Positions 21,375 to 63,981 of a DNA stretch of 64,000 nt are shown piece by piece. A program made the translations under genes and the position numbers. This stretch comes from Bacteroidota bacterium. GTDB taxonomy: Bacteria; Bacteroidota; Bacteroidia; Bacteroidales; FEN-979. The notes under the pieces are model-generated. The model searched no databases, was not told where the DNA came from, and saw only the letters and a list, made by a program, of their open reading frames with translations. Position 1 is the first letter of the stretch, and each line of letters opens with the position of its first letter. The stretch covers positions 1 to 64,000 of the forward strand of contig JAPLDI010000007.1 of assembly GCA_026391795.1 (NCBI GenBank). The letters are read 5' to 3'.

Positions 21375-22286
21375 ATGTTCCAGAAACTGATTGCCGGAAT
21401 GCTCCCCTATATGCCGAAAAAACTGGTATGGATCTTTTCCAGAAAGTATATCGCCGGAGAAACCATCGAAGATGCCATCCGGGTATCCCGGGAGTTGAAT
21501 TCACAGGGCATCAAAGTCACGATCGACCTGCTCGGTGAATTTATTTCCGATCTGAAACAGGCCGAAGCGAACAGGGAGACCTACCTTCAGATCATCGACC
21601 GGATCCAGGCTGAGAAGATCGATGGAAATTACTCCCTGAAACCTACCTCGTTCGGACTTCTCCTCGATGCAGGGGTTTGTTACCAGAACATCAGGCAAAT
21701 TGTGGAGAAAGCAGCAGGATATGATAACTTTATCAGGGTTGATATGGAAGACTCACCCTGCACCGACCTCGAGATAGAGCTTTTCCGGAAACTGAAAAAA
21801 GAATTCCCTTCCCATGTAGGACTGGTGCTTCAGGCATATCTTCGTCGTACACTGGACGATATCAAAAATATGGAGGACCTTCACTCCGCGGCCGTTCCCC
21901 TGAATTTCAGGCTTTGCAAAGGAATCTATGTTGAACCGGAAGCAATTGCCTTTAAGAAATACCAGGAAGTGAATGACCATTACCTCGCTGACCTCGATCA
22001 TATCTTCAGCAAGGGAATGTATCCCGGAATAGCCACACACGACAAGCCCCTTGTGGAAGGAGCTTACCAGCTGATCAGCAAATACAAACTTCCTTCAACT
22101 GCTTATGAATTCCAGATGTTATACGGAGTTACCCCGGAATTACGAAAAAGCATCGTGGAAAAAGGGCATCCAATGCGGGTTTATATTCCTTTCGGAAAAG
22201 AGTGGTTCGGTTACTCCACAAGAAGGCTGAAAGAAAACCCCAAGATGGCAACGCACATCATCAAGGCGCTGTTTATACGCAAGTAA
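21375..22286 (+). CDS. Proline dehydrogenase (monofunctional)
   Basis: 303 residues. The PRODH barrel motifs are visible: VTIDLLGEF, NYSLKPTSFGLLLD, FIRVDMEDS, VLQAYLRRTLDDI, RLCKGIYVEP and IATHDKPL. It oxidises proline to pyrroline-5-carboxylate using FAD at the inner membrane. The P5C dehydrogenase domain of PutA is absent and no separate gene for it lies in the window. It is convergent, with an 11-base gap, with a large FAD/Fe-S oxidoreductase that may also act on proline-like amino acids. Confidence 0.92.
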   Translation: MFQKLIAGMLPYMPKKLVWIFSRKYIAGETIEDAIRVSRELNSQGIKVTIDLLGEFISDLKQAEANRETYLQIIDRIQAEKIDGNYSLKPTSFGLLLDAGVCYQNIRQIVEKAAGYDNFIRVDMEDSPCTDLEIELFRKLKKEFPSHVGLVLQAYLRRTLDDIKNMEDLHSAAVPLNFRLCKGIYVEPEAIAFKKYQEVNDHYLADLDHIFSKGMYPGIATHDKPLVEGAYQLISKYKLPSTAYEFQMLYGVTPELRKSIVEKGHPMRVYIPFGKEWFGYSTRRLKENPKMATHIIKALFIRK

Positions 22287-22297
22287 CAGCTCGTCAG

Positions 22298-25200
22298 CTA
22301 TTTAAAGGCTCTCTCCAGCATTCCGTCGCCTGTCATTTTCAGGCGGTCGAAATAGGACGGAGCAGGTTTCCCAAGCAGTTTATCAACATACATTCTTGCG
22401 AGGTACTGACCCAGCATAAATCCCTGGCCGCGCAAGCCGAGGAACAGCCCGAGTTCAGGGTCGATGATCATTCTGGGTTCAACATAATAACCTGCCCATA
22501 CCGCCTGGAATCCAACGGAGGAAAGTTCCGGGATCCAGTTGGTGAATATCTCGGAGGCGATCTCTGCAAATTCCTCTGAATTGATCCGGATGTTTTTATC
22601 TGCCTCCTGTGGCTCAAATGCCGGAGAAGCGCAGCCGATGATCTGTCCTGTTTCGCCAAGCTGTTGTCCGTAAACCGCCATAAACCCTTTGTATTTCCTA
22701 CGGTCGATCAGCATCCCCAGCGGAGCCCCGTTGATCCCCATCATCGGGAGCCTGCGGGTGATGAAGGCCTGGTGTTTTACCGGAAACAACCCGGTTTCAA
22801 AACCCAGCATCCGGGCAAATTTCTCACCCTCGGGACCGAGAGCATTGATAAAGACTTCCGTTTCGTATTCAACATATTTTTTTTCATGATTGAGGGTCAG
22901 GACGAAATAATGGTTTTCCTCTTTTCTTATGTCCACCAGGCGGCAATCTTCTTCAACCTTTCCACCCTTGTCGATCCCGATCCTGCGGATGAGGTCGATG
23001 ACGCGTCCCGGCGTGGCCTGCCAGCAATCTTTTGTGATCAGTGCGGAGATGTATGTGGTAAGTGAGGCGTTGATCCGCGGAGAGATCTCCTTCTGAAAAT
23101 CTTTGGGACCGACCATGTATGCATTCGACCAGGCCATCGATTCAACAAGTGCATCGTACATTGCCTGATCATGGGCAAAGGTGACATAATTGATGGGACG
23201 GTAATTGACATCATGAAGTTCCTGGAGTTCCCTGAAAATTTCATGATTACGGGTGGCTATCTCCGACAGCTCGGGGAGTGAGAAATTGGGACGGCCGCCG
23301 GCAATATTGCGCCAGGAAGCCCCGCGGCCAAAGTTGATCAGCACCGGTTCCATCTTCTCTTCGCTGAGGTACCTGAACAGCGCGCTGCCCCCGATCCCTC
23401 CGCCTGCAATGAGTGACCTGACTTTTACCTTTTTCGGCAGGTTGCCATTGATGGCCGTGATCACCTTTTCGTGAACCGTACGGGGATAGAGTTCACCCAT
23501 GGATACCTGGTTTGACAAGGGTCCCCGGGGAGTGGGCTCGCCCACGATGGAAATACCGGAGCCGGCCAGGCGCTGCTTCAGCCGCTTGATGCACCGCTTT
23601 CCCCGGCAGGCGCCCATTCCCAGGCGGGTCGTGTGTTTAACCTCATCAACAGAAATGAACTTGCGGTCGCCGATGGTTTCAAGGATCTCATCCAGGGTCA
23701 CATCATCGCAATGACAGACATAGGTCGGTACTGCACTTTCATATTGATACGGTTCGAATGTCACCGGCGAAGGGTAATTCTCTTTCACAATAAATCCCCT
23801 GACCCGCGCAAGTTCTTCCCCGTGAACATCCGTTGATCTTACCCTTGCAATGTTTGTTTTATTGGGTTTCTTCATTATTTTTTCGACAATTCCTTCTCCC
23901 AGTTTCTTCCCGTTGTTATCCACCAGGTAGCATGCTGATTTCTCTGTTACTTCATATTCGATCGGAAGAAAGAGCCAGTCTTTTTTCAGGTTATAGCCGA
24001 AGATGGCAAGTCCGGGGCACTGGAATACACAATCCATACAGCCGGTGCATTTCGAGAAGTCGATGGCTGGTACCGTACTTGTGGACGATTTGGTAATGGC
24101 ACTGTTCGGACACGCAAACGCGCAGGGGTTACATGCAAAGCCATAAAGGCAATCGATGAGAACGAACCCCTTTTCCTGCATGCGAACCGGCGAAGGCAGG
24201 TAAGGCTCCTCGATGATCCTGACCGGGTGCTGTTGTGAATCGATGTATTCCTTTGAGGTAAGGAGGAACGAATCATAGTCAAACTTCTCTCCCATCTCCT
24301 GGAGGATCTCGAACGCTACCTGTTTGCCCCTGACCACGGCGCTTGTACCTTCGCCGATGCGGATGGCATCGCCGGCACCGAAACATTTTCTTCCAAAAAT
24401 CTCATTGCCCTTGATGAGCAACTGATCATCCGATACAAGACCTGTGCAGATATTGATGGCATCGATCCCGCTGATGATCTTTTCGGTACCGGGAACGGCA
24501 TTAAAATCTTTGCACTCGGCGATAACAGCACCCGTGATCCCGTCATGATTTTCATTTGGGATCGCTTTCAGGAGGATGTGAGATGTAAAAACCGGGATTC
24601 CCAGCCTGCGCACACGGTTAGCCTGCACCGGGAAACCGCCTTCGAAGGCCTGGGCTTCTATGATCGCCTTTACGCATGCCCCTGCCTGCATCAGCTGGTA
24701 GGATGTAAGGTAGCCGATGTTCCCGGCTCCGACCGTCAGGATGTTTTTGCCCAGCAGCGTTAGTTCGTTGTTCATCATCTTCTGGACAACTGCAGCCGTG
24801 AAGACACCGGGCAGATCATCATTTTCAAACGTCGGCATAAACGGAACGGCTCCGGTGGCAACAACCAGGTACTCGGCATCCACAAAATAGATCTCCTCGC
24901 TGAGGATGTTCTTAACAGCGATCCTTCCTCCTTCCAGCAGATCCCAAACGGTGGAGTTCAGGAAGATCCCGGAGGGATCATCGCCGGCAAGGGTTCTGGC
25001 AATGTCGAAACCGCGCATACCTCCGAATTTCTGTTCGCTTTCGAAGAAGAAGAACTGGTGGGTCTGCATGAGAAACTGTCCGCCGATCTTGTCGTTGTTA
25101 TCGATCACAAGGTTGGGAACGGAATGTTTGTTCAGCTCTTCCCGGGCAGCCAGTCCGGCAGGACCAGCGCCAATGATGGCGACCGTGGTCTTGTATACAT

Positions 25201-25531
25201 TTATCGGGGTTTCTTTGATATAGTTGGTCCGGTAAGGCGCATAATCGTGGGGGATCTCCTTCACCTCTTTGACCTGATCGACCCGTGTGATGCAGATCCT
25301 TTTTATTTGACCGTCGACAAGCATCTCACAGGCTCCGCATTTCCCGATCCCGCACTCCAGGCTTCGCTCCCGGTTTGTGAGACTGTGGCTGTGAACAGGG
25401 AATCCTGCCTGGTGAAGGGCGGCAGCAATGGTAAATCCTTTTTCACCGGTTATTTCCTTTCCTTCATAGAGGAACGTTGATTTTTCTGCAGGGAGGATTT
25501 CAAGGATCGGATGGGTTTCAATTTTGTACAT
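22298..25531 (-). CDS. Five-module FAD/Fe-S amino-acid dehydrogenase-like fusion
   Basis: 1077 residues from the ATG at 25531, which follows a TAATTTTG promoter box; the longer frame to 25648 is excluded by that box. Modules in order: 2Fe-2S ferredoxin (10-95, CGIGKCGAC ... C), pyridine-nucleotide-disulfide oxidoreductase (FAD loop VAIIGAGPAG near 116, NAD loop TVGAGNIGYL near 262), two 4Fe-4S motifs (about 465-507, CTGCMDCVFQCP), BFD-like 2Fe-2S (about 602-643, CHCDD ... GACRGKRC) and a DAO-type FAD oxidase (from about 704, LIAGGGIGGSA). Separate subunits with these modules form HcnABC, opine and D-hydroxyproline dehydrogenases. Substrate unknown; PRODH next door suggests an imino acid. Confidence 0.85.
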   Translation of the reverse strand: MYKIETHPILEILPAEKSTFLYEGKEITGEKGFTIAAALHQAGFPVHSHSLTNRERSLECGIGKCGACEMLVDGQIKRICITRVDQVKEVKEIPHDYAPYRTNYIKETPINVYKTTVAIIGAGPAGLAAREELNKHSVPNLVIDNNDKIGGQFLMQTHQFFFFESEQKFGGMRGFDIARTLAGDDPSGIFLNSTVWDLLEGGRIAVKNILSEEIYFVDAEYLVVATGAVPFMPTFENDDLPGVFTAAVVQKMMNNELTLLGKNILTVGAGNIGYLTSYQLMQAGACVKAIIEAQAFEGGFPVQANRVRRLGIPVFTSHILLKAIPNENHDGITGAVIAECKDFNAVPGTEKIISGIDAINICTGLVSDDQLLIKGNEIFGRKCFGAGDAIRIGEGTSAVVRGKQVAFEILQEMGEKFDYDSFLLTSKEYIDSQQHPVRIIEEPYLPSPVRMQEKGFVLIDCLYGFACNPCAFACPNSAITKSSTSTVPAIDFSKCTGCMDCVFQCPGLAIFGYNLKKDWLFLPIEYEVTEKSACYLVDNNGKKLGEGIVEKIMKKPNKTNIARVRSTDVHGEELARVRGFIVKENYPSPVTFEPYQYESAVPTYVCHCDDVTLDEILETIGDRKFISVDEVKHTTRLGMGACRGKRCIKRLKQRLAGSGISIVGEPTPRGPLSNQVSMGELYPRTVHEKVITAINGNLPKKVKVRSLIAGGGIGGSALFRYLSEEKMEPVLINFGRGASWRNIAGGRPNFSLPELSEIATRNHEIFRELQELHDVNYRPINYVTFAHDQAMYDALVESMAWSNAYMVGPKDFQKEISPRINASLTTYISALITKDCWQATPGRVIDLIRRIGIDKGGKVEEDCRLVDIRKEENHYFVLTLNHEKKYVEYETEVFINALGPEGEKFARMLGFETGLFPVKHQAFITRRLPMMGINGAPLGMLIDRRKYKGFMAVYGQQLGETGQIIGCASPAFEPQEADKNIRINSEEFAEIASEIFTNWIPELSSVGFQAVWAGYYVEPRMIIDPELGLFLGLRGQGFMLGQYLARMYVDKLLGKPAPSYFDRLKMTGDGMLERAFK

Positions 25532-25644: not shown

Positions 25645-26562
25645 TCAAAGATGAACATAGAAGCCGAAAGTGACAAGGTTCTCCAGCTGAATACTCCGGC
25701 TTACTTTCTCCTCATAGATAACCCTTGTCTGGATGCTGGCTTTCAGGAACCTGTTGATCCGGATTCCAAAATTATTTTTAAGGGTGACATCCACAGGTGC
25801 CGTGTAATTTTTAAAAACGAGCAGATCGCAATTCCATCGGAATCTTTTAAAAAACTCTTTGTCTGCAAGAAATTGCAGGCTGATGCCATATTCAAACCGA
25901 TGGTCCTTTCCTTCCGGAATACCATAATAGGTATCTGTATTCTGCCTTTTGAAGATGCTCTTGTCACGGATCCAGGTAAGTTTTGCCGCTGACAATCCCA
26001 GGCTGACCGAACCAAAATCCCGCCATTTAACAGAAAATCCTCCCGAAAAAGTGCATAGTAAAGGTGTACAGAATGAAGAATTCAGGACTTTGACGACCCT
26101 TCCGCTATCGTCAACGGAATAATCGTACCCGTTCATGATCCTTGAAGCCAGCGTGGAATTTATGGAAAAGTTCAGTTTCTTCCAAATCCGGATATCGAAA
26201 CGGGAATTCAATGTATTGTCGTCGGTATTAACCTTGGTGAGACTGTCAAAATAGCTCAGCAACCCGAGATTGTGCAGGATGGATCCTGAAAAGCCGACCA
26301 GGCTGTCGGCGGAGATTGAAAAAACATATTTCAGATTCTGGAGGAGGATGACCTGGCTGGCATTTTTATCATGGTGCCAGTTTAAGAAAAGATAATTGCT
26401 GAAGGTGAGCGAACCCTCCAGCTCCTGCCTGAAATGTACCTTCCTCCCCGAGATTTCTTTCAGGATTGAATCGGGCGACAACCACGATTGGGTATTTGCT
26501 GATGCTGAAAGGATCAGGCAAAGTACCAGGATTGATTTTTGTTTTTTCTTTCTTCCCCACAA
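25645..26562 (-). CDS. Outer-membrane beta-barrel protein (DUF3078-like)
   Basis: 305 residues. The start is TTG at 26562 (an in-frame stop lies two codons before it), giving KKKQK and a signal peptide (SILVLCLILSASANTQ). The rest consists of amphipathic beta strands (YVFSISADSLVGFSGSI, KKLNFSINSTLASRI, FSVKWRDFGSVSLGLSAAKL) and ends in an aromatic strand (LVTFGFYVHL). This is the layout of DUF3078-type outer-membrane proteins of Bacteroidota; the family call is from strand pattern and order, not a firm match. It lies 113 bases before the oxidoreductase fusion on the same strand. Confidence 0.55.
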   Translation of the reverse strand: MWGRKKKQKSILVLCLILSASANTQSWLSPDSILKEISGRKVHFRQELEGSLTFSNYLFLNWHHDKNASQVILLQNLKYVFSISADSLVGFSGSILHNLGLLSYFDSLTKVNTDDNTLNSRFDIRIWKKLNFSINSTLASRIMNGYDYSVDDSGRVVKVLNSSFCTPLLCTFSGGFSVKWRDFGSVSLGLSAAKLTWIRDKSIFKRQNTDTYYGIPEGKDHRFEYGISLQFLADKEFFKRFRWNCDLLVFKNYTAPVDVTLKNNFGIRINRFLKASIQTRVIYEEKVSRSIQLENLVTFGFYVHL

Positions 26563-26768
26563 TCTTCACCATTTTGAAAAAACAGAACCGGGCATATCCG
26601 GATTGTTGACTCTTTTATCTTCTGAAAATCCGTAGCATCCTTTACGGTTAACATCTTTTTTAATCATCAACCCGGACGCGGGAGCAGGTAATATTTAACC
26701 GCAAAGGGCGCCAGGTTTAAGCAAAGATCGCAATGATGTTTATTTGCTATTTGACTGAATATACTTCC

Positions 26769-27371
26769 TTACAATTTTTTAATCCGGCTTTTTGTCATGT
26801 TCCAGGATTTCTGTATGTCAACATTCAGGTTAATGACCAGGATCCTTAAGTCCTTGCGTTTTTGTGCGGAAGGGATGGTTTCAAAGAGCCGTTCGTTCAT
26901 TTTCCCGATGAATTTTGCCCATGTATTGATGACCAGGAAATCGAATTCCCCCCTGACGGGAAGTTTCGTTGAAGGATCCGGAACCGCCACAATCTCCGAA
27001 AACAGTTTTTCGATATCAATGAAGGTGTCAAACTGATAAACGGTGTCTTTTTTCAGGTGATCTACAAAATATCCCCCCGACCACTGACAGCGAGCCGAGT
27101 CGGTTGCAATCTTTTTAAAATCCGGGTTGATGATCATGGTACTAAGAATGTATTTTTTCAGATGAGGGTCCTTCACCATTTTAATGTAGCTTGTCGAATC
27201 CTTGAAAACATAGAAGTTTTCAACAGGGTAATGGTGCTTCTTTAAGAACCTGGTCAGCGATTCCGCTGACTCCGCTTTTGGGTCTGTGATCCCATAATGC
27301 ATTTTTAGTATTGATTGACATCCTGTAATCTGGAAGAACAGCAGAACCATAAGGAATAAAATCTTTTTCAT
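26769..27371 (-). CDS. Unknown lipoprotein
   Basis: 200 residues from the ATG at 27371 (MKKILFLMVLLFFQITGC), which places a lipobox ITGC at residue 18; upstream in-frame starts would bury the signal. The mature part is mixed charged/hydrophobic with TSYIKMVKDPHLKKYILSTM and GEFDFLVINTWAKFIGKMNE, and no family I recognise. The C-terminal half resembles a thioredoxin-like surface but lacks CxxC. It lies 87 bases downstream of another small secreted protein on the same strand, probably in one transcript. Confidence 0.6.
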   Translation of the reverse strand: MKKILFLMVLLFFQITGCQSILKMHYGITDPKAESAESLTRFLKKHHYPVENFYVFKDSTSYIKMVKDPHLKKYILSTMIINPDFKKIATDSARCQWSGGYFVDHLKKDTVYQFDTFIDIEKLFSEIVAVPDPSTKLPVRGEFDFLVINTWAKFIGKMNERLFETIPSAQKRKDLRILVINLNVDIQKSWNMTKSRIKKL

Positions 27372-27458
27372 AGAATACATGTTAAGGAGATTGTTGAAGA
27401 TTGAAACAGAAAAGGGTTGGCAAAAAGCCACCTTTCAACCAACCCTTCAATATGTTGA

Positions 27459-38315: not shown

Positions 38316-39338
<1,023 letters not shown>

Positions 39339-39355
39339 TTCCAAATCCCACTGAC

Positions 39356-39931
39356 ATGAAGAATGTAATTGTCCTCGGTGCTGGCGGAAGCCTTGCTGAA
39401 TATGTGATTGAGGAACTGAATAAACAAACCGATGTTCACCTGACGCTCTTTTTGCGAAACAAAAAGAGGTTAAAGCTCCCTGAAAATTCGGACTGGACGG
39501 TCATTGAAGGGGATGTTATGGACTATGCCACGTTGAAAAGTGCGGTGGAAGGACAGGATATTGTCTATGTAAACCTTGCCGGGAACCTGGAAGCGATGGG
39601 AAAGAACATCGTAAGAGCAATGAAAGAAACAGGAGTTAACAGGGTCATTGCAATCAGTTCAATCAGTATTTATGATGTTCCCTTGAGACAGGTCCTGGTT
39701 CCCTACAGAAAACTTGCTGATGTGATTGAAGGGTCAGGCCTGGACTACACCATTTTGAGACCAGACTGGTTTACTGATTCAAATGAAGTGGATTATGCCA
39801 TTACCCGCAAAGGTGAGCCGGAACAGGGGACAGCCGTTTCCAGAAAAAGCATAGCCACATTTATAGCAACAATCATTGAGAACCCTGGGTTGAATAAGAA
39901 TGAAAACCTGGGAATAAGTAAACCTGAATAG
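39356..39931 (+). CDS. NAD(P)-binding (NmrA/SDR-like) protein
   Basis: 191 residues from the ATG at 39356; a GTG at 39335 overlapping the previous stop is possible. Rossmann loop VIVLGAGGSLAEYVIEEL, then TVIEGDVMDYATLKSAVEG, AISSISIYD and LDYTILRPDWFTD, as in atypical short-chain dehydrogenases of the NmrA type. The catalytic YxxxK is replaced by YRKLAD. Substrate unknown. It is the second gene of the redox cluster. Confidence 0.85.
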   Translation: MKNVIVLGAGGSLAEYVIEELNKQTDVHLTLFLRNKKRLKLPENSDWTVIEGDVMDYATLKSAVEGQDIVYVNLAGNLEAMGKNIVRAMKETGVNRVIAISSISIYDVPLRQVLVPYRKLADVIEGSGLDYTILRPDWFTDSNEVDYAITRKGEPEQGTAVSRKSIATFIATIIENPGLNKNENLGISKPE

Positions 39932-44729: not shown

Positions 44730-46409
44730 TCACTCTTTTATGAATCTGCCTGCTTCCGCCCCGGCGTTGCCGGTTAATCTCACGATATAAACTCCTTTTG
44801 CAAATTCACGTATGTCAATGTCTGTTTTACCTTGCTGCATCTGCCGTTGCATAAGGATTTGTCCCTGCAGGTTGTAAACGGAAATAACAGAATGCCCGGT
44901 CATTTCTGTACTGATCGTCACTCTATCGGATGCAGGATTGGGATACAGGTTGAGAAAGTGTTTATTATTTCCAGAATTATCCTGGATGGAATTCCCCATT
45001 CTGTAAATAAATTTTACAACAACCGCTGATCCGGCAGGAACATTGAAATGAGTCGCATGCGAGGTAACCGGCAACGATGTCCAGGTATACACAGGAATTC
45101 TCCCCAATGAATCTACCACCTTTTCGCCAAGGGTAACCCGGGTTGTATCTCCCAGGGAATCGGAACGTAGCCGGAGGTATTCAGCGGCAATATAGTTACT
45201 GTTCCGGATATCTACCTCTAAACTTATCACTGAATCAGGATTTTGCCATGTCTCTTTATTTATGATCGTAGTGTATATATTGTGCGAGGCATCAATTACG
45301 CTATACGTATCAAGATTAATATGATTGTTCCATACCGTATCCTTAATGAACTTGCCTTTGCTTCCGATCTGGAAAGCAAGAATTCCATAGGCAATCGGAT
45401 GTGCACGATAAACATTATGGTATTTTGAAAAAACAGTATACGGCCCCTCAAGTGCTCCATGAAAATTGACCCCTGCACAACTGTCATAAGCCAGCTGATA
45501 CATATAGTCCAGTGCCCAGAGGGCTGAAACAAATGCATTGCTCACGCCCCACATTCCTCCATGAAACAATGAATTGGTTTCACTCATGCGAAAAGGAATA
45601 TGGCCCCTGCTTGCATACTTGACCAATGAGTCCGCCACATGAGAAATATAATCAAGGTTGTTCTTCATCAGCAAGGAATCCGTCTTCTGCTTGATTATTT
45701 CGTGGGTTGTATCTTTTCCTCCTTCTCCACCATAATTATGTTGCGTAAGCATAGCTATTTTAGAGGGTATGGTGTCCATATCCCTGCAGAATGGCTCCGT
45801 CCATTCGTAGTGATTATCGGCACAACCGGGTCCCGCAAAAACAGCCGCAGGTTGAGATTGTCTGATTGCATTAAAGTAACCCATAAATTCCGATTCATAT
45901 TGTTTAACCATTTATGCCGGTGGTGGTATACGGTATAGGTGTTCTACATACTTATCGGGCTCGTTACCCACTTCAAATCCAAAGAGCTGACCAGGGTGGT
46001 TCTGGATAACATAATTTGCTTCGGTATCGGCAAGCGGAGGATTATTATATCTCAGATTTAAACCCAGTAAGACCTTGCAACCGGCGCTGTCTGCAAAAAG
46101 AAATAAACTGTCTAATTCTGCTTTTGTGAAATGCTTATCTGTCGGATCCGGGCCCAGTGTGACTATATCTACTTCATCGCCTCCGACACGCATTGATTTA
46201 ATCCCGCATGTCTTAAAAAACCGGATCAACGTACTTTCGGAAGGACCAAAATAACCCTTGTTCAGGCAGTTCTTCTCGAACGACAAGCCGGCAAAATCGG
46301 AAGCGATCGGGTTTAATGTATCCTTTGGATAAAGCTTGATGTATATCGTGTCCTGCGAAAAACCAGCAAGAGAAAAAAGAAAAAGAAATGTAAAGCAAAG
46401 AGGTCTCAT
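44730..46409 (-). pseudogene. GH79-like secreted glycosidase with T9SS domain, broken by an in-frame TAA
   Basis: One reading frame of 559 codons interrupted only by TAA at 45914-45912; an ATG follows immediately in the same frame. Signal peptide (FTFLFLFSLAGFSQ), a GH79-type barrel (SMRVGGDEVD, FGFEVGNEPDK with the acid/base Glu, FRMSETNSLFHGG with the nucleophile, AGVNFHGALEGPY), then a C-terminal type A sorting domain (NLYPNPASDRVTIS ... FAKGVYIVRL ... GRFIKE). The two catalytic Glu residues lie on opposite sides of the stop, so neither half can work alone. It may be a nonsense mutation, recoding or an assembly error. Confidence 0.8.
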
Positions 46410-48145: not shown

Positions 48146-48844
48146 ATGAAAAAAAAGGGAAAACTGATTTACCTGTTTCTGATTTTAGGGGTTTCATTTA
48201 TCTTTTCCAACAGCTGCAAGAAAAGTAGTGACTCCGGCAACAATTCCGGTACAGTTGTAACCGTGACCGATATCGACGGGAACGTTTATCCCACGGTAAT
48301 CATTGGCACCCAGACCTGGATGGCTGCTAACCTAAAGACTACGAGATACCGCACCGGTGATTCGATACCTCATGTCGCTGACAGTCTGCAGTGGGTGGCA
48401 CTTACAACTGCAGGATACTGCAACATTAACAATGACCCGGGGACCGTGAATATTTATGGGCGTTTATACAATTGGGCTGCGGTAACCGACAGCAAAAACA
48501 TAGCGCCCGCGGGCTGGCATGTGCCTACAGATGCGGAGTGGACGACCTTGCTGACATACCTGGGTTCAGGCGCCGGAGGTAAACTCAAATCAACCGGAAC
48601 AACATACTGGAACAGCCCTAACGCAGGCGCAACAAATGCAACAGGGTTCAGCGGCCTGCCGGGAGGCGACCGGTCCAGCAACGGATTATTCCATTACAAG
48701 GGAATATATGGTTGCTTCTGGTGCACCACAGAATTTTCGGCCACAGATGCCTGGGAACATGTGCTTTCTTACATCAGCAGCAATGTTACCCGGATGTCAT
48801 ACTCCAAAGGATTGGGGTTATCGGTTCGTTGCGTAAAAGATTAA
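48146..48844 (+). CDS. FISUMP-domain lipoprotein (1)
   Basis: 232 residues. Signal with lipobox FSNSC followed by KKSSDSG. The FISUMP (Fibrobacter major paralogous) domain is complete: DIDGNVYPTVIIGTQTWMAA, NLKTTRYRTGDSIP, YGRLYNWAAVTDS, PAGWHVPTDAEWTTLLTYLG, ATGFSGLPGGDR and the C-terminal LSVRCVKD. It resembles formylglycine-generating-enzyme-like folds without their activity. A surface protein of unknown role; two relatives lie at 58941 and 62732. Confidence 0.9.
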   Translation: MKKKGKLIYLFLILGVSFIFSNSCKKSSDSGNNSGTVVTVTDIDGNVYPTVIIGTQTWMAANLKTTRYRTGDSIPHVADSLQWVALTTAGYCNINNDPGTVNIYGRLYNWAAVTDSKNIAPAGWHVPTDAEWTTLLTYLGSGAGGKLKSTGTTYWNSPNAGATNATGFSGLPGGDRSSNGLFHYKGIYGCFWCTTEFSATDAWEHVLSYISSNVTRMSYSKGLGLSVRCVKD

Positions 48845-56254: not shown

Positions 56255-57418
<1,164 letters not shown>

Positions 57419-57428
57419 AATCAAAAAA

Positions 57429-58079
57429 ATGAAAAAAGTAGTATTAATCGGAGCCAGCGGATTCGTCGGAACCGCTCTGCTCAAAGAAATTTTGAACCGG
57501 GGAATTACCGTCACGGCCATCGTTCGGAATCCTGAAAAAATAACGATCAAGTCCGACCTTCTTTCAGTGGTAAAAGCCGATGTTTCTTCAGCCGAAACGG
57601 TTACTCTGTTGTGCAAGGGGTTTGATGAAGTCATCAGCGCCTACAATCCCGGCTGGACAAACCCGAAGATCTATGAAGATACATTGAACGTGTATTCTGC
57701 AATTCTTGAAGGTGTCAAAAAAGCAGGCGTGAAACGTTTGTTATGCGTTGGCGGTGCCGGTTCGCTGTTCTGTGCGCCGAACCTGCGTGTCATGGATTCC
57801 GGAGTGATTCCCGAAGCTTATTTGCCGGCCGTAAAAGGGTTAGCTGAGTTCTATCTGAAGATCCTGATGAATGAAAAAAACCTTGACTGGATTTTCTTTT
57901 CGCCTGCAGGAACCATTACCCCGGGACAACGTACCGGAAAATTCCGTCTCGGGAAAGACGACCTGATCGTTGACAAAGACGGCAACAGCAATATCTCGGT
58001 CGAAGATTATGCCATGGCCATGATTGATGAACTGGAAAACCCCAAACATCATCATGAACGGTTTACCATCGGGTATTAA
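57429..58079 (+). CDS. NAD(P)H-binding (SDR-like) protein
   Basis: 216 residues. Rossmann loop VVLIGASGFVGTALLKEIL, VTAIVRNPEKI, VVKADVSSAETV, LCVGGAGSLFCAP and LDWIFFSPAGTITPG. It matches the NAD(P)H-binding proteins often annotated as Rrf2-linked NADH reductases. It is a different subfamily from the gene at 39356 although both follow an aldo/keto reductase. Substrate unknown. Confidence 0.9.
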   Translation: MKKVVLIGASGFVGTALLKEILNRGITVTAIVRNPEKITIKSDLLSVVKADVSSAETVTLLCKGFDEVISAYNPGWTNPKIYEDTLNVYSAILEGVKKAGVKRLLCVGGAGSLFCAPNLRVMDSGVIPEAYLPAVKGLAEFYLKILMNEKNLDWIFFSPAGTITPGQRTGKFRLGKDDLIVDKDGNSNISVEDYAMAMIDELENPKHHHERFTIGY

Positions 58080-58940: not shown

Positions 58941-59663
58941 CTAATCCTTCACACAGCGTACACTGAAACCATATGTCGTGGTCCAGTTGTCGCGGAAGGC
59001 TATGGCACTGTCGTAATTGAGTTCACGGCCCCATGCGTTTCCGATGCCGGTAAATGTCGACGACCACCAGAACCCGGTGTGGCCAATCATACTAAGGAAA
59101 AAATGACCCCCTTCACGGCTGCCGCCGGGAAGCGCAGAAAAAAGACTTGCATTGGTGGCGCCGGTATTGGGTGCGAACCACAATCCTGTAGCGTCCTCAA
59201 TTGTCCCGGTGGCTTTCATTCTTCCCCCGGCTATACTTTCTCCTTCAAGAAAGCTGGTCAGGATGGTCCATTCCGCATCAGAGGGTATATGCCAGCCCAC
59301 AGGGGCGAGCTTGCCTGTACTCACCGCATTCCAGTTGTACAAGGCTCCATAGACGCTTTTGTAACTGATATCATTATTCAACCAGCAGTACCCGGGGGTG
59401 CTTAGATACCTCCACGTCGCGCTGTCGGCAACGAGGGGAATCGGAATTCTATTGCTGTAAAGGGTTGTCCGGAGATTCTCGGCCATCCACCACTGGTTGC
59501 CGATCTTTACAGTTTTATACTTGTTCCCGTCAGCATCGGTAACGGTTCCCGTCGTGGCATCCAGAGTCACGCTATCCTTTTTCTTACTGCAACCACCTGC
59601 AAGCATCAGAATAATTCCCAGAAAGATCACGATGCTGGTCCGGCTCATTGTCCATTTCTTCAT
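58941..59663 (-). CDS. FISUMP-domain lipoprotein (2)
   Basis: 240 residues from the ATG at 59663. Lipobox LAGGC followed by SKKKDS. Complete FISUMP domain: DADGNKYKTVKIGNQWWMAE, LRTTLYSNRIPIP, YGALYNWNAVSTGK, PVGWHIPSDAEWTILTSFLE, FSALPGGSREGGHFF and the terminal FSVRCVKD. A paralogue of the lipoprotein at 48146. A surface protein of unknown role. Confidence 0.9.
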   Translation of the reverse strand: MKKWTMSRTSIVIFLGIILMLAGGCSKKKDSVTLDATTGTVTDADGNKYKTVKIGNQWWMAENLRTTLYSNRIPIPLVADSATWRYLSTPGYCWLNNDISYKSVYGALYNWNAVSTGKLAPVGWHIPSDAEWTILTSFLEGESIAGGRMKATGTIEDATGLWFAPNTGATNASLFSALPGGSREGGHFFLSMIGHTGFWWSSTFTGIGNAWGRELNYDSAIAFRDNWTTTYGFSVRCVKD

Positions 59664-59819
59664 TGAGTTCAATAATTGATAGTAAGAAATCCGCTGTCTT
59701 TAGGGAAGAACACATTCATCCGAAAGTACAGTGTAAATTTGATTGGTGCAAAAATACTTCCTGTACTGATTTTATGATCCGGAATTAACATTATTTAAGA
59801 AAACCAGCAAGGGGAATGA

Positions 59820-62731: not shown

Positions 62732-63981
62732 TCAGTTATCCCTGATACACCTCACAGACTGGCCTGCTCTTTTCATGGGAAAGAGGGAATAGATATCGCT
62801 GAAACACCAGCGCAGGCTCCGGTACCATGCCGAAGTGGCATTGTATGTGGTCGATGTCCAGAAGGCGTCATCGTGATTGTTATCCGGGGCCAGGCTCCAG
62901 GCGCCGCTGGCATTCCTGAAGTTGGCGCAGAGAGCGGTAAACCCGACTGAATTTAATCCATAGGTCGAATCCATGTATGCCCAGCGGGTATTGCAGCCCT
63001 CCTTCAGGATCCTTCCGATGATCCTGCCTGTACCTCCCAGGGGCACATTTTTCGGCTGTCGTCAACCGCATAGAAATTGTACAGACGGCCATAAAATTCG
63101 CCTTCGGCGGGCAGGTTGTGAAAATCACAATACGCCCCGGTGGTAAGACTGCCCCATGTGGCGCTGTCGGGCACATTCGGTATGGCTGATCCGTCCAGGT
63201 ACCGTGTGGTTTTCAGGTTTTCCTGCATCCATAACTGTGACCCTATCCTCACAACCGCATAATGATTGCTGTCGGCATCGGTGCAATTGACAAACGAAAA
63301 GGTCACCGTCTGGTTGTGTGTTGGAAACAGCATGCTGACAGTCCTGTAATTTCCCGATTTCCCGGTAAGTTTGAGTGTATCCCCAGCATTGAACTGCATG
63401 AGAACGATTGACCGGGTTCCCCTGAATTGACCCGGATCCGTTGTTCCGTTTACATCCGGTTGCATCATTTTCATGACTGCCGGTTCCATCGCGGTAAATG
63501 CAGGAGATCCAGCTCCGGCAGCCTTGCTGATCAGTTTTGCCGAATAAATATGCCGGTCTGTTTCAATCTTCACGATGTAAACCCCTGCCTCTATTCCACT
63601 CAGCTGAAACCGGTGTTCCCCTTTCTGAAGAAATTCTTTTTCGTGCAGGATCGTTTCCCCTGATATACCGTACAACCTGATGGATATATCGCCGGCTGAA
63701 GGCACCTGGAATTCAACCGAACAGGTTCCCGGGCAAGGGTTCGGATAAAGATTCATCGTGTATTCCCGGGGATTGCCTGTCTCCTTTATCCCAACTTCCC
63801 GATCGAGGATCAGGGTGTCTGTTCCTCCAAGAAGCAGGCTTGTGCATTGCGACAGGTTTTCCACTTTTACGGAATCAACGGTTGAGCTTGCTCCTGTTCC
63901 TGCAAAGGTAATCTGGTAGAACTGCGCCCGGAGTTCACAACCTGCAAGTATCATGAATAGCGAGAGGGTAATTGTTTTCAT
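62732..63981 (-). pseudogene. FISUMP-domain protein (3), broken by a deletion/frameshift
   Basis: An N-terminal frame from 63981 to a stop at 63004 and a second frame ending at 62732 together make one FISUMP protein. A signal sequence (lipobox LAGC) is followed by an internal sorting-domain-like module (NLYPNPCPGTCSVEF ... IEAGVYIVKIET) and then the FISUMP start (SNHYAVVRIGSQLWMQENLK, YGRLYNFYAVDDSRKMCP). At about 63036-63043 the expected GWHVP.DAEW...L stretch is missing and the frame shifts. The rest (LGGTGRIIGRILKEG ... QSVRCIRD) continues in another frame. Likely a short deletion of about 55-60 bases. Confidence 0.8.

Follow-up and report, generated by a model that had tools for sequence, protein, structure and literature searches.

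The closest described systems are heteromeric flavoenzymes. The archaeal dye-linked L-proline dehydrogenases, PDH1 and the alpha-beta-gamma-delta type (pdhA/F/X/B), consist of two to four subunits, and the accessible part of PMC4364671 describes PH1363/PH1364 as an alpha4beta4 L-proline dehydrogenase of P. horikoshii. In opine dehydrogenases, D-hydroxyproline dehydrogenases, and hydrogen cyanide (HCN) synthase, a common set of modules is distributed over separate subunits, namely a Fer2_4 gamma subunit, an alpha subunit with flavin adenine dinucleotide (FAD) and BFD domains, and a DAO beta subunit (described in the accessible part of PMC4575208), and a Ti-plasmid operon (L242) encodes the Fer2_4, FAD+BFD, and DAO set as separate proteins. 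Here we describe a gene that joins such modules in one chain. It lies in a 64,000-nucleotide stretch of DNA from a Bacteroidota bacterium of the order Bacteroidales (assembly GCA_026391795.1, contig JAPLDI010000007.1, positions 1 to 64,000; hereafter the window), and encodes a five-module fusion of 1077 amino acids (P0001), which is a single chain in its relatives as well. Its kinship, its gene neighborhoods, and its spread across genomes suggest, with moderate confidence on our part, that the fusion is a single-chain oxidoreductase of proline and pyrroline-5-carboxylate (P5C), organized along the lines of the heteromeric dye-linked L-proline dehydrogenases of archaea.

In a profile search with the fusion, the top two matches of solved structure were the two chains of PDH1 (1y56), with 1y56_A, named PH1363, matching residues 13–268 and 598–678 and 1y56_B matching residues 703–1052. 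The E-value was about 1e-15 for each chain (1.2e-15 for 1y56_B) and 3e-10 for the next best match, so that by profile PDH1 comes closest to the FAD-BFD half and to the DAO half alike. Scored as homology only, the fusion thus has the traits of PDH1, a DAO-fold beta homologue of PH1364 and an FAD-binding alpha homologue of PH1363 with a C-terminal BFD-like segment. An AlphaFold2 model built with a 62-row alignment (A1; the window sequence and 61 of 95 picked relatives, 56–73% identity) had a mean pLDDT of 88.3 and a pTM of 0.85. Against this model, Foldseek placed 1y56_B at rank 1 and 1y56_A at rank 4, the two ranks between them going to sarcosine oxidase alpha chains, and VIA-align, the list of which covers residues 700–1077 only, aligned 1y56_B over 352 residues with a Z of 40.6 and a root-mean-square deviation of 2.2. 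The segments KHQA and WAGYY are common to the DAO module and 1y56_B. None of the four Fer2 Cys residues is present in the aligned stretch of 1y56_A, whereas the fusion keeps the complete N-terminal [2Fe-2S] set.

The coding sequence occupies positions 22298–25531 of the minus strand, with ATG at 25531 and the stop codon at 22298–22300. TTG at 25648 is a possible start, and M1 (25531) is invariant across A1, window included. The open reading frame (ORF), its translation, and the Pfam domain search confirmed the five-module composition that an earlier note had read from the DNA, as did relatives and the AlphaFold2 model. From the N-terminus, the chain comprises a Fer2_4 [2Fe-2S] module (residues 19–86, 25274–25477; PF13510, 36.9 bits; Cys 60/65/68/80), followed by an FAD/NAD(P) oxidoreductase module of the Pyr_redox_2 family (residues 116–296, 24644–25186; PF07992, 58 bits, and the 1y56_A match), in which GxGxxG motifs at 121–126 and 268–273 are both invariant in A1. 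Two [4Fe-4S] motifs come next (Cys 461/467/470/474 and 495/498/501/505, 24017–24151), matched by Fer4_9 (PF13187) over residues 466–507 at 23.6 bits, below its 27-bit cut-off, and by Fer4 (PF00037) at 21.5 bits, barely above its cut-off of 21.1. A small beta-rich segment at residues ~510–600 (23732–24004), seen in a model of residues 428–603, had no Pfam match listed. Folded alone, residues 428–603 gave a mean pLDDT of 90.9 and no PDB match at E ≤ 0.001, from which we claim no new fold. A BFD-like [2Fe-2S] module (Fer2_BFD; residues 604–653, 23573–23722; PF04324, 35.1 bits; Cys 606/608/642/647) and a DAO-type FAD module (residues 707–1049, 22385–23413; PF01266, 93.4 bits, and the 1y56_B fold match) complete the chain. 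The 16 conserved Cys residues are, judged from their motifs, the presumed cluster ligands; all 182 aligned copies contain 15 of them, and 181 also contain C80, in an alignment that omits L084 and L086, the two of 80 loci whose fusion is divided between two ORFs, and the truncated L240. A1 likewise preserves the two dinucleotide motifs of the FAD/NAD module, the DAO GxGxxG motif, and the Cys sets, with C80 nearly invariant. A further alignment, A2, held 46 of 62 prepared stretches.

A convergent gene on the plus strand (21375–22286) encodes a Thermus-like proline dehydrogenase (PRODH) of 303 aa (PF01619, 129.4 bits; 208 bits against NF045947, below the 500-bit cut-off). It ends 11 bases from the fusion on the other strand, as the earlier note had stated. 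No promoter- or terminator-like site was found at 22200–22400, which is uninformative.

By fold, both halves of the fusion also resemble heterotetrameric sarcosine oxidase (SoxA/SoxB), from which the fusion differs in having 4Fe-4S motifs, in giving no Pfam match to GCV_T (aminomethyltransferase), and in scoring far below the cut-off of the sarcosine oxidase alpha profile (TIGR01372, soxA; residues 115–333, 59.3 bits vs 1164). Its likeness to PRODH and PutA is confined to the proposed reaction, PF01619 (Pro_dh) not being among the 15 Pfam families listed for the fusion. P5CR_dimer (TIGR00112/PF14748) was absent from these 15 families and from the best 25 of 45 curated-profile matches. In a tree of 29 DAO rows, the 11 fusion modules formed one starred clade apart from the 18 others, with a stem of 3.18. 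The references of this tree were plasmid records and stretches from PDB alignments, three rows had long branches, and six had odd composition, and it was used only for the separation of the fusion clade. Two Ti-plasmid DAO rows, of unproven identity, fell outside that clade, and the tree holds no identified HcnC or LhpB.

The claim of the earlier note that known systems keep these modules in separate subunits did not hold, since shorter single-chain fusions of 966–967 aa, annotated as 'FAD-dependent oxidoreductase', occur in Agrobacterium vitis and Aureimonas. The A. vitis protein, the one scanned, has Fer2_4, FAD, and DAO in the same order by Pfam and, unlike the Bacteroidales fusion, matched neither a 4Fe-4S nor a BFD family. 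A 4Fe-4S match was likewise missing from the three scanned proteins of the Ti plasmid, whose DAO has the RxW motif; the fusion differs on both points. The DAO modules of A. vitis and Aureimonas group elsewhere in the tree, and the Bacteroidales and alphaproteobacterial single chains therefore look to have arisen independently. The alphaproteobacterial genes (L247, 3186–6086; L251, 4965–7868) lie beside dihydrodipicolinate-synthase-family, dihydropyrimidinase, and amino-acid ABC transporter genes. The modules and the fold are thus already known; in the accessible text of the open-licence literature, we found no description of the 4Fe-4S-bearing fusion, its spread in Bacteroidales, or its tie to the P5C node.

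To follow the spread of the family, we searched genomes across the order, and the fusion was matched in 153 of 393 Bacteroidales genomes. Most of the listed matches span query residues 1–1077, some being partial at contig ends, and full-span copies of ~3.2 kb occur down to 56% identity, so that the fusion in the window is not an artefact of assembly or reading frame. We kept to the order because in a phylum sample only one of 395 genomes, the window's own, matched at E ≤ 1e-30. In a search of relatives, 21 of 41 were matched at 1e-20 or better, one of these matches covering just 71 residues; the raw count was 30 of 41, some of it from hits near 1e-4 that we attribute to chance. Within the window's own genus, the fusion is present in three of five genomes (G003 and G004 are without it). 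Since the locus set covers 80 of 575 confirmed relatives, taxon counts were taken from the genome search instead. One of the 80 loci (L062) is labelled Phycisphaerae and falls among Bacteroidales rows. A Parabacteroides distasonis record carries a family member of 62.5% identity, the one whose annotation was examined, which is named only 'FAD-dependent oxidoreductase'.

The genome neighborhoods revealed PRODH within 1.5 kb of the fusion in 22 of 159 scorable loci, comprising 13 with a convergent short type, six with a divergent short type, and three with a divergent long type. The family tree on which these were placed has 183 rows (L084 and L086 dropped), 24 of them not scorable for PRODH; a PRODH-bearing locus was scored even with a short flank, a PRODH-less locus only if both flanks were at least 1.5 kb. 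PRODH adjacency changed at least nine times on this tree, gains and losses pooled. The long type was labelled by length and orientation, and its rows are 56–57% identical to one another by BLAST. Short and long types are ~21–25% identical, and the association of the fusion with each type thus had a separate origin. Among the 103 genomes with both genes, at least nine, from five families, have them adjacent, compared with ~0.18 expected under uniform placement. This recurrence across lineages, together with L-proline dehydrogenase subunits being the best solved relatives by sequence, supports the imino-acid substrate that the earlier note had thought plausible. P5C dehydrogenase (P5CDH) lies upstream of the fusion in one clade, at ~2.4 kb in L056, L059, and L067 and at 4.4 kb in L068, and a divergent ornithine aminotransferase (OAT) gene lies 278 bp from the fusion in L218. 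Of 185 loci, 47 have a DUF177-like gene no more than 1.5 kb away, and plsX/fabH-like genes are also common; these neighbors, all named by eye, look like positional background. Upstream of the fusion in the window, the minus strand (25645–27431) carries a DUF3078-like gene (below cut-off) and a lipoprotein-like gene, a pair (clusters c3 and c4) that is kept in those loci of the window clade having that flank.

To examine the company of the fusion at the P5C node, we compared gene content across the 393 genomes, of which 103 had both the fusion and PRODH, 50 the fusion without PRODH, 126 PRODH without the fusion, and 114 neither. P5CDH (E ≤ 1e-100) was matched in 35 of 50 genomes with the fusion and no PRODH vs 6 of 50 sampled genomes with neither (p 4e-9 by genome), and in 28 of 30 sampled with both vs 22 of 30 sampled with PRODH alone; these counts include one match under the curated cut-off in each of two profile runs, and PutA-type PRODH may hide P5CDH in some genomes of the last group. 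Counted by family among PRODH-less genomes, P5CDH was present in 18 of 29 with the fusion vs 6 of 31 without (p 0.0013); all other profile tests treat related genomes as independent. ProC was rare with the fusion. By TIGR00112 (E ≤ 1e-20), it was matched in 7 of 50 PRODH-less genomes with the fusion (two of the seven under the cut-off, one a fragment) and 18 of 30 without. By PF14748, with four weak matches set aside (E 9e-6 to 9e-4; three, near 1e-5, in genomes with both genes, one with PRODH alone), it was matched in 0 of 30 genomes with fusion and PRODH, 10 of 30 with PRODH alone, and 14 of 20 with neither. Pooled, which mixes the two models, this amounts to 7 of 80 with the fusion vs 42 of 80 without.

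OAT was matched in 45 of 50 PRODH-less fusion genomes vs 9 of 30 with neither gene. Four PRODH-less fusion genomes from two families (G441, G552, G488, and G744) have P5CDH and no OAT match, making the fusion a candidate source of P5C there; ProA gave no match in G488, the only one of the four searched. Conversely, 13 of the 50 have OAT with no P5CDH or ProC match. Among ProC-less genomes, ProA was matched in 1 of 50 with the fusion and 5 of 30 without, in hand-picked sets that include 20 of the 43 ProC-less, PRODH-less fusion genomes and 30 of the 38 ProC-less genomes without the fusion. Overall, of the 80 Bacteroidales genomes in which ProC had no clear match, 74 had no ProA match either, fusion present or not. 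The absence of ProC thus accompanies a broader lack and is no distinguishing mark of the fusion.

The fusion thus occurs in company with PRODH, P5CDH, and OAT and rarely alongside ProC, all of which act at the P5C node. Taken with its kinship, this makes a proline/P5C oxidoreductase the simplest explanation. Taking the modules, ligand conservation, structural kinship, gene neighborhoods, and genome profiles as observed, we infer the bound cofactors, electron order, substrate, direction, and acceptor as follows. The C-terminal DAO module would bind FAD and oxidize L-proline to P5C. Electrons would pass from this FAD via the BFD [2Fe-2S] cluster and the two [4Fe-4S] clusters to the FAD of the pyridine-nucleotide module, with nicotinamide adenine dinucleotide (NAD+), or an external carrier reached via the N-terminal [2Fe-2S] cluster, as the final acceptor. 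P5C would then go to P5CDH, giving glutamate, or to OAT. In PRODH-less Bacteroidales, the fusion would be the proline dehydrogenase, and in PRODH-bearing genomes a second, differently wired enzyme. Two points favor the oxidative direction, namely the chemistry already known for the nearest solved relative and the genomes that have P5CDH and lack both PRODH and OAT.

Several observations weigh against this account. Sarcosine oxidase beta (Z 39.9) is tied by fold with 1y56_B (40.6), and sarcosine oxidase alpha outranks 1y56_A in Foldseek. The RxW motif of DAO, which is ascribed to flavin mononucleotide (FMN) binding at a putative FMN site in the accessible part of PMC4575208, is R-T-W in 1y56_B and A/S-x-W in the five fusion rows compared, with A1010 kept in at least 90% of A1. 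In the same five rows, Asn replaces the acid of the FAD ribose site (N733, invariant in A1), and the fusion DAO did not group with PDH1 beta in the tree. The kinship of the fusion with PDH1 is clear, and its membership of a named subfamily is not established. At the level of loci, 137 of the 159 scorable have no PRODH within 1.5 kb, OAT adjacency was seen once, and P5CDH proximity is limited to one clade. At the level of genomes, co-occurrence of fusion and PRODH is weak (odds ratio 1.86, p 0.0046), 50 of the 153 fusion genomes have no PRODH match, and 15 of the 50 PRODH-less ones have no P5CDH match. The P5CDH contrast shrinks among ProC-less genomes (30 of 43 vs 6 of 18, p 0.011), and the P5CDH and ProC profiles are both confounded by phylogeny. 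Finally, electron transfer from proline to NAD+ is uphill, with potentials of about −123 and −320 mV.

Transfer from NADH to P5C is downhill, and a serious rival, which we nevertheless consider rather unlikely, is the reverse reaction. The fusion would then be an NAD(P)H-driven P5C reductase replacing ProC, with electrons passing from NADH to the FAD of the pyridine-nucleotide module and through the Fe-S chain to the DAO flavin, where P5C made by OAT would be reduced to L-proline. The two conserved dinucleotide motifs are consistent with this direction, and it is favored by the scarcity of ProC (7 of 50 PRODH-less and, at strong scores, 0 of 30 PRODH-bearing fusion genomes vs 42 of 80 without), by the frequency of OAT, which also lies beside the fusion in L218, and by the 13 genomes with OAT and no P5CDH or ProC match, in which the fusion is hence a candidate P5C consumer. 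However, ProC is also absent from 38 of 80 fusion-negative genomes, so that family history may explain its scarcity; ProC and the fusion occur together in G441, G552, G472, G521, and G040; and the nearest solved relatives by sequence act oxidatively.

Less likely still, the fusion acts alongside PRODH rather than in its place and oxidizes an imino acid other than L-proline, for example trans-4-hydroxy-L-proline or D-proline. P5CDH also accepts the hydroxyproline product, and such a substrate would account for PRODH and the fusion lying side by side. The heteromeric superfamily in question includes D-hydroxyproline dehydrogenase, as described in the accessible part of PMC4575208. However, no epimerase, proline racemase, or hydroxyproline gene was recognized by eye in 40 neighbor clusters, with no genome search made, and a D-substrate would not require P5CDH. 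Least probable is an unrelated amine (sarcosine, dimethylglycine, glycine, or an opine), with the ties to proline genes reflecting a protein-fermenting lifestyle: the long-stemmed separate DAO clade, the fold tie with sarcosine oxidase beta, and the variation of P5CDH, OAT, and ProC by family would fit, but lifestyle leaves the repeated adjacency to two distant PRODH types unexplained, and the chain has no GCV_T match.

Should the fusion act on proline/P5C, models of Bacteroidales that lack PRODH or ProC matches could mistakenly deny them the use or the synthesis of proline. The fusion would in that case also offer a one-polypeptide model of the electron path in HCN synthase and archaeal proline dehydrogenase, altered at the FMN-linked motif and supplemented by 4Fe-4S motifs. 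A bolder version, which we regard as doubtful, would make the fusion a new class of P5C/proline redox enzyme, single-chain, four-cluster, two-flavin, and NAD(H)-linked, that has displaced ProC, PRODH, or both in many Bacteroidales, that works in either direction according to whether P5C comes from ornithine or proline, and in which the Fe-S chain replaces the archaeal FMN relay.

Elsewhere in the window, two same-frame ORFs of 165 and 393 aa on the minus strand (44730–46409), with just one TAA between the first and the ATG of the second, may together form a glycosidase-like gene, as judged by eye, interrupted by a nonsense codon or an assembly error. Three similar lipoprotein-like genes (48146–48844, 58941–59672, and 63004–63981) have a common YG(R/A)LYN segment and resemble the FISUMP domain family. 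A pair of genes named by eye, one for an aldo/keto reductase and, after it, a short one of the NAD-binding (NmrA-like) kind, is duplicated at 38346–39931 and 56276–58079.

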